Positions 71-9,117 of a stretch of 10,656 nt of DNA are shown here, piece by piece. Under the pieces are notes generated by a model that was given only the letters and a program-made list of their open reading frames with translations, searched no databases and had not been told where the DNA came from. Numbering within the stretch: position 1 is the first letter of the stretch; every line of letters begins with the position of its first letter. The translations under genes and the position numbers were made by a program. The DNA is from an uncultured Candidatus Saccharibacteria bacterium (GTDB lineage: Bacteria > Patescibacteria > Saccharimonadia > Saccharimonadales > UBA6022): positions 1 to 10,656 of the forward strand of contig CAMPJF010000027.1 in NCBI GenBank assembly GCA_946886725.1, written 5' to 3'.

Positions 71-144
71 TAGACTCGTCACCAGAACCGTCATACTTTC
101 GTATAACACCTTTGGTGACGAGAGACAGAGGGTACTGTTTCTCG
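71..144 (-). repeat. 3' element of cassette 1: anti-Shine-Dalgarno block plus GAAA-capped hairpin
   Basis: This follows the 214-444 gene. Read on the minus strand it gives CCCTCTGTCTCT, the complement of the cassette start-site block, then a hairpin. The outer stem is 10 perfect base pairs (122..113 with 84..75), the inner stem is 7 pairs including one G-U, and the loop is GAAA closed by C-G. A second copy lies at 556-633; from the outer stem onward the 28-nt interior differs at only two positions. The pairing is best on the minus strand, where G-U wobbles hold that would be C-A mismatches on the plus strand. No long U-tract follows directly, so this is not a standard intrinsic terminator. 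Confidence 0.85.
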
Positions 145-213
145 ACACACGATACTTTTCGAATACGTCTGATTATATTACTGACGATTCGAGGCGTGAG
201 TCACCCCTGGATT

Positions 214-444
214 CTAACCTTGATCCGCATTTTTCTTCAAAAACGGCAGACCGACTAGACTATCCCAAAGCATAAGAGCGACGACGCTCAGACCAAGTGC
301 TTGAAGGCTAACGATAACGCCGGCCATGATCGGTATTAACCCCACCATTGGCTCGGTTTCGTTTGCTCCAATGAAAAAACATGCGACTGCGCCCAGTGCA
401 AATACGAAAGACGCAAAGAAGATTAGTTTAACACTAACGGGCAT
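214..444 (-). CDS. Small two-helix membrane protein, cassette 1 (76 aa)
   Basis: I do not recognise a family. The 76 residues are almost entirely two hydrophobic segments, about residues 6-25 and 34-60, joined by a short loop (NETEP) and followed by a short charged tail (KKNADQG). It should sit in the cytoplasmic membrane. The start is supported by GGGGAG about 5 nt before the ATG. The organisation matches the 658-921 gene: similar promoter, leader length, start-site block and 3' element. The proteins share size, two-helix layout and a loosely similar second helix ending in L-x-D-x-L, so they may be distant paralogues, but identity is low by eye. It could be a holin-like, toxin-like or stress membrane peptide; none is shown. 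Confidence 0.75.
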   Translation of the reverse strand: MPVSVKLIFFASFVFALGAVACFFIGANETEPMVGLIPIMAGVIVSLQALGLSVVALMLWDSLVGLPFLKKNADQG

Positions 445-446
445 TT

Positions 447-461
447 CACTCCCCTGTCTCT
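447..461 (-). promoter_or_regulatory. Ribosome binding block of cassette 1, complementary to its 3' UTR
   Basis: The minus strand reads AGAGACAGGGGAGTG just before the ATG at 444. The first 11 bases can pair without interruption with CCCTCTGTCTCT of the 3' element at 121-132 (8 Watson-Crick pairs, one G-U, then two G-C). Pairing would cover the Shine-Dalgarno GGGG. Confidence 0.7.
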
Positions 462-521
462 AAAATATGTCGCATCAGCAACAATCAAAACATCTTCAAT
501 TGAAAGATGCCTATAAATAGT

Positions 522-550
522 ATATTAACATAAATATACTAAAAAAGCAA
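522..550 (-). promoter_or_regulatory. Promoter of the 214-444 gene
   Basis: Minus-strand TTGCTT (550..545) and TAATAT (527..522) are 17 nt apart. The -35 lies in TAAAAAAGCAAT (540-551), a 12-nt block repeated exactly at 1016-1027 in the other cassette. The predicted leader is about 70 nt. It contains hairpins CATCTT/AAGATG at 491-509 and GTTGC/GCGAC close to the start-site block. An 8-bp inverted repeat AGTATATT/AATATACT (519-540) overlaps the -10 box and could be an operator. Confidence 0.5.
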
Positions 551-555
551 TATTA

Positions 556-633
556 TAGACTCCTCGTCACCAAAACCGTCATACTTTCATATAACACCTT
601 TGGTGACGAGAGACAGAGGGTCTCTGCTTCTCG
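556..633 (-). repeat. 3' element of cassette 2: anti-Shine-Dalgarno block plus GAAA-capped hairpin
   Basis: Second copy of the element at 71-144, placed just after the 658-921 gene. The outer stem is again 10 perfect pairs (610..601 with 572..563), with identical arm spacing. Its two interior differences from copy 1 are structurally mild on the minus strand: G101 becomes A589, turning a C-G pair beside the GAAA loop into U-G, and G85 becomes A573, turning an A-C mismatch into A-U. AGAGACAGAGGGT at 609-621 is the exact inverse of the start-site block at 928-940. TATAAT occurs just downstream (557..552) but without a good -35. Confidence 0.85.
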
Positions 634-657
634 CCGAAAAAACATGCGTATCGCTCG

Positions 658-921
658 CTAGGTTTGTGGCACCTCGGGCTTGTCGCTTTCAGCGGACTGC
701 GCCTCACTCTGAGACTCACCCAGCGCTTCGACATTCTCCTTGAGATCTCCCAAGATAAACGCCAAAACGATCGCGATTAACCCAACGACGATAAAAAGCG
801 CCGCGTCATTTATGCCGCCGTACTTCTCTGGCGAGAGTGGATTGGTCACCCAGGAAATCAGGCTGCCGATACCGAAAGCCGCACTCCCCAGACCCAACAT
901 AGCAAGTATTGCAAATTGCAT
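658..921 (-). CDS. Small two-helix membrane protein, cassette 2 (87 aa)
   Basis: No family recognised. Two hydrophobic segments (about residues 3-25 and 39-58) flank a short polar loop (PLSPEKYGGIND); a hydrophilic acidic tail of about 28 residues rich in E, S and Q follows and ends in VPQT. Membrane location is inferred. The frame is open upstream to 1026, but I place the start at the ATG at 921 because GAGGG lies about 8 nt before it and the longer reading would translate the promoter and leader. The unit lies right after hisS but has its own promoter, so it is probably transcribed separately. A small envelope or stress protein is possible; a toxin is not excluded. Confidence 0.75.
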   Translation of the reverse strand: MQFAILAMLGLGSAAFGIGSLISWVTNPLSPEKYGGINDAALFIVVGLIAIVLAFILGDLKENVEALGESQSEAQSAESDKPEVPQT

Positions 922-925
922 CTTT

Positions 926-940
926 GTACCCTCTGTCTCT
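926..940 (-). promoter_or_regulatory. Ribosome binding block of cassette 2, complementary to both 3' elements
   Basis: The minus strand reads AGAGACAGAGGGTAC, ending 4 nt before the ATG at 921. All 15 bases are the reverse complement of the 3' element after cassette 1 (121-135), and 13 of them match the element after its own gene (609-621). A 6-bp hairpin ATGTCG/CGACAT (944-961) sits 3 nt upstream; CGACAT-ATT-AGAGACAG is shared with cassette 1. Confidence 0.8.
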
Positions 941-997
941 AATATGTCGAATGAACGACATGCGAGATATCGTCTGACGATAGATATCTTAAAATAT

Positions 998-1026
998 ATA
1001 CTACCACAAAAACAATAAAAAAGCAA
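998..1026 (-). promoter_or_regulatory. Promoter of the 658-921 gene
   Basis: Minus-strand TTGCTT (1026..1021) and TAGTAT (1003..998) are 17 nt apart, and the -35 starts 2 nt after the hisS stop codon. Box sequence, spacing and predicted leader length (about 69 nt) match those of the other cassette, which is the main support. Confidence 0.5.
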
Positions 1027-5219: not shown

Positions 5220-5306
5220 TGGTACGCGAGAGAGGACTTGAACCTCCACGTCCCGAGGGACACTAGCACCTGAAGCTAGCGCGTCTACCAATTCCGCCAC
5301 TCGCGC
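5220..5306 (-). tRNA. tRNA-Leu, anticodon CAG
   Basis: An 87-nt class II tRNA. The acceptor arm GCGCGAG pairs with CTCGCGT, the anticodon stem CTAGC/GCTAG closes the loop TTCAGGT (anticodon at 5272..5270), the variable arm GTCC-CTCG-GGAC is long, and the T-arm carries TTCAAGT. Discriminator A and the CCA end are encoded. It decodes CUG. A broken copy of the 5' half lies upstream, between the gene and its promoter. Confidence 0.97.
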
Positions 5307-5323
5307 ATATGTACCATTTTCAC

Positions 5324-5364
5324 GCTAGCGCGTCTACGATTACTCATAGGGCCGCCACTCGCGC
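5324..5364 (-). pseudogene. Broken 5' half of tRNA-Leu, upstream of the intact gene
   Basis: CCGCCACTCGCGCATATGT (5352-5370) repeats 5294-5312 exactly, and GCTAGCGCGTCTAC (5324-5337) repeats 5275-5288 exactly. On the minus strand this is the acceptor 5' strand, the start of the D arm and the 5' side of the anticodon stem. The 5 bases between the two blocks in the intact gene are replaced by 14 unrelated bases, which removes one G of the D-loop GG, and the copy stops before the anticodon. It cannot fold as a tRNA. It is nearer to the promoter than the intact gene. Confidence 0.85.
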
Positions 5365-5387
5365 ATATGTCGGGTAGATACCCAATT

Positions 5388-7143: not shown

Positions 7144-7650
7144 ATGAATGAACGCCCAGTCCTCCCGTCCCACTACGCTCGCCTAACAGTGAGTGACATA
7201 GCTCCAGGTGAAATATATTATCCAAAGCAAAATATACTCGAAATGGACGATACGACCAAGGAAGTCTTTATCCATAAATACACTGAACTAAGCGAATCAT
7301 CAAAGCGACCAAAAAAGTTAGTCGGTCGCGTAGGAATTATGCGAATACTAGATTCAACAAGTGATTTTCAGCTACTTGATGGAGTTATTGTAGACGCTCG
7401 ACGCGCACGGTCAAGCAATATAAAAACCGAATTCTACTACCCATTCGATCCAAACAACGAAGAAGAGCGAATGGCTTGCGATGAACTTCGCCTAGACTAC
7501 ATCCACCCGCTCGCCATAATCGCGCTTGATGAAGATGCAAAGCCAGTTTATTCGGGCAACGAGGCCTTAATCGATCACGCTAACGAGTTGCGCGAGAAGA
7601 CAGACGAGCTCTACGAGTACATTCTTCAACAAAGCAATAGCCATTCTTAA
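7144..7650 (+). CDS. Unrecognised soluble protein (168 aa), leaderless mRNA
   Basis: No family recognised. The protein is soluble and charged, with no signal peptide or membrane helix, one cysteine, and a probable helical, acidic C-terminus (HANELREKTDELYEYILQQ). The pattern PGEIYYP near residue 21 and GVIVDARRAR near residue 88 suggest alternating strands and turns. I start it at 7144 rather than the longer in-frame ATG at 7105 because a TTGACT-N17-TACTAT promoter lies between them and no Shine-Dalgarno serves either. It diverges from the FAD oxidase, and the tRNA-Leu(UAG) promoter begins 19 nt after its stop, with no terminator between. Confidence 0.7.
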   Translation: MNERPVLPSHYARLTVSDIAPGEIYYPKQNILEMDDTTKEVFIHKYTELSESSKRPKKLVGRVGIMRILDSTSDFQLLDGVIVDARRARSSNIKTEFYYPFDPNNEEERMACDELRLDYIHPLAIIALDEDAKPVYSGNEALIDHANELREKTDELYEYILQQSNSHS

Positions 7651-8010: not shown

Positions 8011-9117
8011 ATGAAACGTGTGTTACGAGCACTCCTTGCGCCACTCGTCCTTGCCCTGGTTGGCATAGGATTGGCAGCCCCGGCTGCGTCCGCCGATATT
8101 GACACCGACCGCATCATGCGGGCAACGGTATGGGTTGACGTCTCCTGGGAAGGTATCGTAGAAGTCCCCTACGCCGACGACACTACCGAAAAATACACCG
8201 CCACAGCAATCGGCTACTGCACTGGCTTCATCGTTAGCCCAAACGGTCACGTGGCCACCGCGGGCCACTGCGTGCGCTACGACGAAGGCATTCGGCGCCA
8301 GCTAATTGCGAACGTCATTGCAAAAGAGAAGCTTGCTCCGACAAACGGCCAATTCGACGTCACAAAGCTTGACTGGAGAGTCCTTCATGAAGAGACACCA
8401 ACGATTCGCATCGGCCAGCCGAGCGTAGTCAATGATGCGATCTTCGAGAACGAAGGCATCACAGCACAGCTGCTCAACTCGCAAGACTTTGAGGGCGGAG
8501 ACAACGCACTCGTGCAAGTTGCCGGAAAAAATACCGAGGATGCAGTGCTGCAAATTGCCAGCCAAACACCGAAGGTTCGCGACAGAGTAACTGCCGTAGG
8601 CTTCCCCAGCGACACTGCTGGAATCAGCGAGGCCGACCGACAGTCGCCTACGTTTAAGGAAGGCTCGATCAGTGCCCAGACCGTATCAAAAAAAGGTGTT
8701 CCTCAGCTCCAGCTTGATGGCGAGCTGATTACAGGTATGTCGGGCGGACCCACACTCAACAGTACCGGCCAAGTTGTCGGCATCAACAGTAGCGGTTTCA
8801 CCGACAGAAATCAGTCGTACATTACCGACACCGCAACGCTCCGGACATTCTTGGAGCAGAACGGCGTCAAGCTATCGTCGGCTCAGCCAGCGTCAAGCAC
8901 GCCAGTTGCCGTCGACCCGCAACCAGCCGCGCAGCCGGTTCAACAGAGCTCGGACAACGGCTGGATGGGTGGTGCGCTTATCGCACTTACCGTCTTGATC
9001 CTGGTAATCCTTGGCGCGGGAGCATGGTACATACTGCGCGAACGGCGCAAATCAACACCAGTAGCAGCGCCCGTCGAACCGCCCATGTCTCCACCGAGCG
9101 ACACGACCAAGAGTTAA
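8011..9117 (+). CDS. Secreted, membrane-anchored trypsin-like serine protease
   Basis: 368 residues. A signal peptide (basic MKRVLR, hydrophobic core, ASA before residue 29) leads to export. The chymotrypsin-fold protease domain spans about 33-285: His86 in TAGHC, Asp164 in GGDNALV, Ser244 in GMSGGP complete the triad. Cys70 and Cys87 flank the catalytic His as in the classic Cys42-Cys58 disulfide. A Pro/Ala/Gln-rich linker (291-313) precedes a membrane helix at about 319-342, then RERRK and a short Pro-rich tail inside. The active domain is thus displayed outside the cell on a tether. No PDZ domain is seen, unlike DegP/HtrA. The Shine-Dalgarno is weak (AGAGAAAG). The gene looks richer in GC than its neighbours, and the signal peptide has an actinobacterial look. 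Confidence 0.88.
   Translation: MKRVLRALLAPLVLALVGIGLAAPAASADIDTDRIMRATVWVDVSWEGIVEVPYADDTTEKYTATAIGYCTGFIVSPNGHVATAGHCVRYDEGIRRQLIANVIAKEKLAPTNGQFDVTKLDWRVLHEETPTIRIGQPSVVNDAIFENEGITAQLLNSQDFEGGDNALVQVAGKNTEDAVLQIASQTPKVRDRVTAVGFPSDTAGISEADRQSPTFKEGSISAQTVSKKGVPQLQLDGELITGMSGGPTLNSTGQVVGINSSGFTDRNQSYITDTATLRTFLEQNGVKLSSAQPASSTPVAVDPQPAAQPVQQSSDNGWMGGALIALTVLILVILGAGAWYILRERRKSTPVAAPVEPPMSPPSDTTKS

Follow-up and report, generated by a model that had tools for sequence, protein, structure and literature searches.

The closest described relatives of the arrangement reported here are bacterial mRNAs whose two ends pair with each other. In the hok and AapA mRNAs a 5'-3' long-distance interaction (LDI) lies over the Shine-Dalgarno sequence (SD) and translation requires processing of the 3' end; the AapA folding is described as conserved at various loci in related species (PMC6733600). 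The icaR mRNA of Staphylococcus aureus is the case of a single gene, whose 3' UTR pairs in cis with the SD region, which interferes with the initiation complex; the 3' UTR carries a 7-nt UCCCCUG motif, and cleavage by RNase III is involved (PMC3868564). In Bacillus subtilis the 5' and 3' UTRs of the hbs mRNA pair in cis over 14 nt, which is reported to protect the mRNA from RNase Y; this again is a single gene, and its 3' UTR is described as not conserved in close relatives. The same source names RNAIII, icaR and hbs as single cases of bacterial 5'-3' UTR interactions and states that applicability to other genes "requires further investigations" (PMC7821165).

The cassettes described below are like hbs in that 5' and 3' UTRs pair in cis. 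They differ from icaR in forming a family, with helices mostly of 9-13 bp and with flanking hairpins; the pairing of the 3' UTR with its own SD, as in icaR, is seen here in the sequence, while its effect on translation is a prediction.

The two cassettes of the window

Saccharibacteria are a bacterial group with very small genomes. The locus examined here is Saccharibacterial; it lies on a stretch of 10,656 nucleotides, called the window in what follows, and the closest relatives of its HisS protein come from MAGs of Candidatus Saccharibacteria or Saccharimonadia. Two cassettes, A and B, are found on the minus strand between hisS (1029-2369, Pfam) and a trigger-factor-like gene, presumably tig by resemblance, which begins near position 29 and extends beyond the window. 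Their features, from the start of cassette B to the end of cassette A, are the following.

1004..1026, minus strand: AT-rich TTGCTTTTTTA block at the start of cassette B, a possible promoter region (sequence)
944..961, minus strand: P0 hairpin of cassette B (ATGTCG..CGACAT), 3 nt upstream of P1 (folding)
928..940, minus strand: P1 5' strand of cassette B (AGAGACAGAGGGT), overlapping the SD of the 87-aa gene (MFE pairing with 609-621)
658..921, minus strand: 87-aa ORF with two predicted transmembrane (TM) segments, cargo of cassette B (ORF, hydropathy)
605..635, minus strand: X - anti-SD - Y segment of cassette B, with a competing local hairpin of GGCGAGA with TCTCGTC (run 16.7, p 0.07)
609..621, minus strand: P1 3' strand of cassette B (ACCCTCTGTCTCT), the anti-SD block (inverted match)
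563..610, minus strand: P2 terminal hairpin of cassette B (inverted repeat I3; family covariation)
519..550, minus strand: possible promoter region of cassette A (TTGCTT...TATACT; sequence, block D2)
468..484, minus strand: P0 hairpin of cassette A (TTGTTGC TGAT GCGACA; folding)
451..461, minus strand: P1 5' strand of cassette A (AGAGACAGGGG), overlapping the SD of the 76-aa gene (pairing, MFE)
214..444, minus strand: 76-aa membrane ORF, cargo of cassette A (ORF, hydropathy)
135..144, minus strand: X segment of cassette A (CGAGAAACAG), with possible local pairing to the end of the 3' block (CGAGA:TCTCG only, p 0.26)
121..131, minus strand: P1 3' strand of cassette A (CCTCTGTCTCT), one G.U with its own SD block (pairing, MFE)
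75..122, minus strand: P2 terminal hairpin of cassette A (inverted repeat I2; family covariation)

The first-pass annotation had described the start-site blocks of both genes as complementary to their own 3' UTRs. The inverted matches on which this was based are present, 121-135 matching 926-940 at 15 of 15 positions and 609-621 matching 928-940 at 13 of 13, and minus-strand positions 461..451 of the 214-444 gene do pair with the gene's own 3' block, a match of 11 positions that includes one G-U. The notion of a 3' UTR antisense to its own ribosome binding site holds for own matches of 13 positions (87-aa gene) and 11 positions (76-aa gene), but the match of 15 is a cross-cassette one, joining the 3' block of the 76-aa gene to the SD block of the 87-aa gene. 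In the minimum free energy structures predicted by RNAfold for both mRNAs (z-scores -7.0 and -5.0) the helix between SD and 3' block is present and directly adjoins the terminal hairpin.

The 3' elements of the two cassettes (75-133 and 563-621) are 97% identical over 59 nt, and the AT-rich block of cassette B has a similar copy before cassette A (block D2, 76%). The 76-aa and 87-aa ORFs show no similarity to each other at E<=0.01; each has one sub-threshold Pfam match and a single near-identical homologue (P0002 with 99% protein identity for the former, P0001 with 97% for the latter). Promoter-like sites are weak for both cassettes: cassette B, with a TATATT-like -10 within 988-1004, has a promoter score of only 8.0, and a consensus promoter scan found none upstream of either cassette.

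Elsewhere in the window, at 5275-5370, the tRNA-Leu(cag) gene (5220-5306, minus strand) is followed downstream by two exact repeats of parts of itself or of its edge, one of 14 nt (5324-5337) and one of 19 nt (5352-5370), which resemble a partial tRNA duplicate. An ORF of 368 aa at 8011-9117 has a signal-like N-terminus and a C-terminal TM segment, and we take it, by eye, to resemble a secreted trypsin-like serine protease.

The cassette family and its cargo

A blastn search of the elements against 80 loci returned matches in L002 (RYN_419), L003 (JJ.18) and L055 (UBA4727), each with one cassette after hisS and a different ORF in it. The cassettes of relatives follow one order, with a promoter-like site, the P0 hairpin, a 5' block usually lying over the SD, a small ORF that differs between cassettes, a 3' block and the terminal hairpin P2. 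The first-pass annotation spoke of two genes; both are confirmed, but the phenomenon is not limited to them, as relatives carry the same cassette. Among the six loci inspected by eye, L004 and L040 have no cassette.

JJ.18 carries a second cassette on another contig (L087), which is followed by a promoter-like stretch resembling the one before tig and therefore probably belongs to the same hisS-tig locus. The contig of L003 (genome G003, JJ.18) ends inside the P2 hairpin of the post-hisS cassette, which together with L087 is consistent with tandem copies broken in assembly. In L001 (RYN_423, 7339-7460, L093) a decayed 3' hairpin lies between hisS and the tig-like gene, with neither ORF nor SD block, and this remnant suggests loss of a cassette followed by drift.

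Each of the five genomes in the genus group had matches to a covariance model of the 3' element (R1); G001, G002, G003 and G023 have matches away from hisS-tig, and the match at hisS-tig of G001 is the decayed remnant. Broader models (R2, R3) reached at least 35 of 394 genomes of the family at E<=0.01 and at least 44 of 392 of the order at E<=0.001. At the level of the phylum at least 15 of 379 genomes were matched at E<=0.001, eight of them already known and seven new (G628 and the second matches in G794 and G875 are left out of this reading). These tallies are lower bounds, since filters were stricter in any search covering more than 40 genomes, and the survey favours CTGTC-like blocks because the models, made from the 3' element, took in about 12 nt of the 3' block. 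Five of the six new phylum loci (L205-L210) showed no significant P1, and the sixth, L209, is cut short by the end of its contig; as the new loci gave no convincing cassette, we make no claim beyond the order of G002. An exact 13-mer search of the family hit nine places in 8 of 245 genomes, and at five of the nine (L082-L086) the cassette is absent.

The 51 matches used below are the inspected model matches plus the window, leaving out L003 (hairpin cut), G017 and G152:C60; L128 and L139 in this set are near-identical. At its gathering scores Rfam release 15 did not match the element in the window, where it found only two tRNAs, and in 12 loci it returned only an L10 leader (L118, 1315-1453) outside the cassette match. 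Identity with SAM-SAH was rejected, the match being below the gathering score (E 0.92).

The genes inside the shell are varied. In 58 cargo ORFs of 41-204 aa, a simple hydropathy rule predicts TM segments, one or more, for 25 and none for 33; the earlier description as small membrane protein genes fits both window ORFs and is too narrow for the family. The clearest family match is HTH_3 in one member (1.9e-07), and other Pfam, PADLOC and PHROG matches are scattered, one member per family. Only eight pairs of the 58 ORFs are similar at E<=0.01, and none among the window's two ORFs and those of L002, L087 and L055, so that the cargo is mostly unrelated and either diverges very fast or gets exchanged.

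Related cargo was seen in L096, L097 and L099, other loci in three related genomes, whose ORFs share 22-31% identity and which we take by eye to be small helical, HTH-like proteins. Membrane proteins are the cargo of four, possibly five, cassettes that stand in tandem in locus L132 (2380-6300), an accessory membrane-protein array in which two proteins are related at 23.5% identity; by eye the array lies between what are presumably nrdR-like and ftsZ-like genes.

Pairing between the two ends

Could the complementarity be a coincidence? An SD is rich in purines, and any C/U-rich stretch at the 3' side will resemble an anti-SD. We compared the block directly before the terminal hairpin with the upstream 60-700 nt (400 nt for cassette A of the window, keeping the search within its own cassette), the choice of ORF or start site playing no part. 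Non-cognate blocks do score well, with a permuted mean of 19.0, and against the blocks of other cassettes the p-value (p_up) of a single match is above 0.05 in 28 of 51. The mean cognate score, however, is 25.8 over the 51 matches (permutations: sd 0.47, maximum 20.98 in 20,000) and 23.35 against 18.35 (sd 0.57, maximum 21.08) over 31 later matches; the later set includes weak matches and some other loci of first-set genomes, L204 in it repeats L125, and L187 (too short) and G487 are left out. With the mean cognate score exceeding all 20,000 permutations in both sets, coincidence is hardly credible at family level, and the first-pass proposal of an mRNA pairing with itself gains support.

For single matches the picture is more uneven. 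Values of p<=0.05 were reached by 40 of 51 against their own shuffles and by 23 of 51 against the blocks of other cassettes, and the own block scores at least as high as every other block in only 17 of 51. Good P1 helices are absent from several matches, for example L143, L144, L199 and L200. Both window copies have p_shuf 0.005 (0 of 200 shuffles as good, the lowest possible value), with p_up of 0.176 and 0.059; against the blocks of other cassettes they are not individually distinctive, and the cassette-specificity of P1 is a result at the level of the family.

Compensatory change between SD block and 3' block, by which the earlier annotation proposed to judge the pairing, is found in relatives. 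The flanks of six hisS-tig cassettes allow an alignment that makes no use of pairing; it offers 12 possible P1 pairs, of which seven are invariant, three have changed on both sides (one also to G.U) and two depart only through unpaired cells at the distal end. The share of cells that pair is 88.9% in this alignment and no more than 60% in slid ones; as there are only six sequences and the number of both-side changes is reached in 11 of 500 column shuffles, the covariation of these cassettes is modest when taken alone. Across the family the helices are mostly 9-13 bp long and matched, and their sequences differ: GGCGGAAGGAA/TTCCTTCCGCC in L147, GAGCAGAAGGAT/ATCCTTCTGCTC in L135, AGGCAGGAGA/TCTCCTGCCT in L116 and GGACAAGGAGA/TCTCCTTGTCC in L118, while the tandem array of L132 has GAGACAGGGA/TCCCTGTCTC beside GAGACAGAGG/CCTCTGTCTC in neighbouring cassettes. 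In the pairing table the register of P1 was picked by complementarity, and its rows for L127, L130 and L141 are doubtful. Over the family as a whole P1 is specific to its cassette, and its two strands show matched changes. Interior G.U outnumber A.C in P1 by 12 to 4, a count that includes weak matches, so that P1 alone leaves the choice between RNA and DNA undecided.

That choice bears on a reading at the level of DNA, in which the inverted blocks would serve a mobile or invertible cassette, akin to those of integrons, as terminal repeats or as sites of recombination. In integron cassettes small ORFs, unrelated to one another, each have a structured element behind them and stand in tandem arrays; the consensus core of the element, attC, is GTT/AAC. 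The similar shell around mostly unrelated ORFs, the tandem arrays and the symmetry of the hairpin arms, by which the models also match the opposite strand, all fit such a reading. The terminal hairpin fits it poorly. P2 is an 18-pair hairpin with 93.1% of 735 cells paired in 41 sequences (from the 51, L124, L125, L127, L128, L130, L141-L144 and one L132 copy are left out as weak, duplicate or misfitting); 17 of its 18 pairs have changed on both sides, and its covariation score is 0.581, where slid alignments give no more than 0.13. Among its cells G.U outnumber A.C by 83 to 16, or by 31 to 13 without the two conserved wobble positions, and this preference is expected for a sense-strand RNA and not for duplex DNA. 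The AAC/GTT core is missing in 31 of 41 P2 sequences; as only 10 have it, we do not file the element as an integron cassette, and cassettes here differ from those of integrons in possessing their own promoter-like site and 5' partner block. The 5' strand of P1 stands behind P0 and, in 23 of 42 cassettes, behind a promoter-like site scoring at least 10. Presence in phage or viral genomes, which a phage moron would entail, was not observed: three P2 patterns had no match in viral contigs and megablast gave none in phages. A DNA-level role is on these grounds very improbable.

The cassette also has other recurrent parts. A sigma70-like site scoring at least 10 lies within 130 nt upstream of P1 in those 23 of 42 cassettes and scores below 10 in the other 19. 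P0 usually ends a few nt before P1, with a mean z of -2.25 over 42 cassettes and values below -1 in 36 (mononucleotide shuffles). A short way upstream of P2 a segment X has its complement in Y, the stretch where the 3' block meets the 5' arm of P2. X:Y scores average 14.82 against 12.26 (sd 0.28, maximum 13.54) over 72 of 82 matches (L127, L130, L141-L144, L193, L199, L200 and L203 skipped), with 11.54 for a control further upstream; at family level the complementarity is specific to the cassette, and it is mostly weak where the blocks are GACAGAGTA-like. X:Y cannot form together with the base of P2 or with part of P1, which makes the 3' end look bistable. A role of P2 as a general intrinsic terminator was rejected, a T-rich stretch following it in only 9 of 51 matches.

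The first-pass annotation had also raised the possibility that the 3' element comes free as an RNA and silences both genes in trans; in the rival reading weighed here, this would be a small RNA acting on the cassette genes. The 3' block of cassette A does fit the SD of cassette B at 15 of 15 positions, better than B's own block, and copies in L132, like the two in G037, are interchangeable (ties). Within genomes, though, the own 3' block is the better partner in 20 of 32 cases, equal in 9 and worse in 3; as the 87-aa gene is among these three, cross-pairing between tandem copies may occur. An internal sense promoter scoring at least 10 is found in none of 42 cassettes, which leaves release by processing as a possible route, and P1 is contiguous with P2 in the same RNA. 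Silencing in trans of both genes accordingly appears improbable.

A putative clamp on the start site

Where does the helix lie in relation to the gene it would control? The nearest listed ORF starts between -2 and 15 nt after the P1 5' strand in 35 of 44 matches and 21-105 nt after it in the other 9, where P1 cannot directly mask the start for this reason. Single assignments are uncertain (the block of L145 is of the second kind, a TTG start in L131 is nearer to P1, and one L132 register was mis-picked). Judged by position, masking of the start site appears to be the common arrangement, beside which a second layout exists. In this second layout (L128/L139, L129, L133, L134 and, twice, L136) a matching P1 is kept 21-88 nt from the listed start. 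By eye, a further hairpin seems to stand between the P1 5' strand and the start codon in L128/L139, L129, L134 and L136.

The second layout gives some weight to the idea that P1 joins the mRNA ends as protection against ribonucleases, the hiding of the start being a by-product. P0 and P2 flank the helix on either side, and the hbs mRNA of B. subtilis provides a reported precedent (PMC7821165). Protection of ends would not, however, need the position next to the start that is found in 35 of 44 matches, and we regard stabilization as an unlikely main purpose. With P1 away from the start in 9 of 44, closure of the ends may nevertheless be the wider role.

How the 3' block would affect access to the start was followed by partition folding. 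The folded stretch began about 50 nt upstream of P1 and ended with P2, and 36 of the 42 kept cassettes were used, the other six having blocks more than 650 nt apart. P1 has a mean pair probability of 0.93, above 0.5 in 35 of 36. The P1 5' strand is unpaired with a probability of 0.05 in the full-length RNA, 0.41 in an RNA ending before the 3' block and 0.39 with that block scrambled; since P1 was picked by complementarity, it is this contrast with truncation and scrambling that is informative. Accessibility of the P1 5' strand is thus predicted to depend on the 3' block.

The explanation that we consider best, and probably correct, is a cis-acting 5'-3' clamp of the mRNA that represses translation, as suggested by the sequence comparisons and the predicted folds. 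Each cassette would be an independent transcription unit whose transcripts run through P2, and the 3' end of the mRNA would fold back onto the 5' end. The block just before P2 would pair, as P1, with a block of the 5' leader that mostly overlaps or borders the SD; P1 would stack directly on P2 and lie usually a few nt from P0. In the closed state the start site would be hidden and the mRNA inert, so that closure of P1 would repress translation in the cell, and removal or opening of the 3' end would expose the start site again. Opening could come about by 3' trimming, by a switch to the competing X:Y hairpin or through a bound factor. Because the pairing recurs with matched changes around many genes, most of them unrelated, it is probably a built-in lock on protein production.

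The logic of such a cassette would be analogous to that of the hok, AapA and icaR mRNAs, and the earlier statement that no system of this layout had been described does not stand, 5'-3' pairing over the SD being known from all three. As in hok/Sok and AapA/IsoA, the 3' end pairs, here by prediction, with the 5' end over the SD, or off it in 9 of 44. The cassettes differ from these systems in their phylum, in the mostly unrelated cargo of 41-204 aa, often without a TM segment, and in having a P2 with conserved G.U positions together with an X:Y competitor. Type I toxins are short hydrophobic toxic peptides, whereas 33 of 58 cargo ORFs here, which range over 41-204 aa, lack a TM segment. Nor does the antisense RNA with its own promoter, as in hok/Sok and AapA/IsoA, find a counterpart in a consensus scan, where the best antisense promoter inside a cassette averages 6.76 against 6.63 in shuffled sequence and scores at least 10 in 1 of 42. 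Since an antisense promoter does not stand out and the cargo is not a uniform small toxin, we do not file the cassettes as type I toxin-antitoxin systems. In the literature on Saccharibacteria, Patescibacteria and CPR and on UTR interactions and toxin mRNAs, a shell common to unrelated genes is not described in the titles and abstract beginnings among the matches listed, a search covering few subscription papers or preprints.

What could such a shell mean for these bacteria? It is possible, and we put it forward tentatively, that this order of Saccharibacteria possesses a modular mRNA clamp, in which promoter, P0, P1, a bistable 3' switch between X:Y and P1 with P2, and P2 itself would wrap exchangeable and mostly orphan small genes. 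Pairing of tail to start would shut the mRNA and a signal would open it, one design controlling variable accessory genes. If a clamp is indeed common to many mostly unrelated genes, what has been known as isolated cases would become a general regulatory design. The family would then offer a handle on the small orphan genes of Saccharibacteria, together with an RNA switch that is directly testable.
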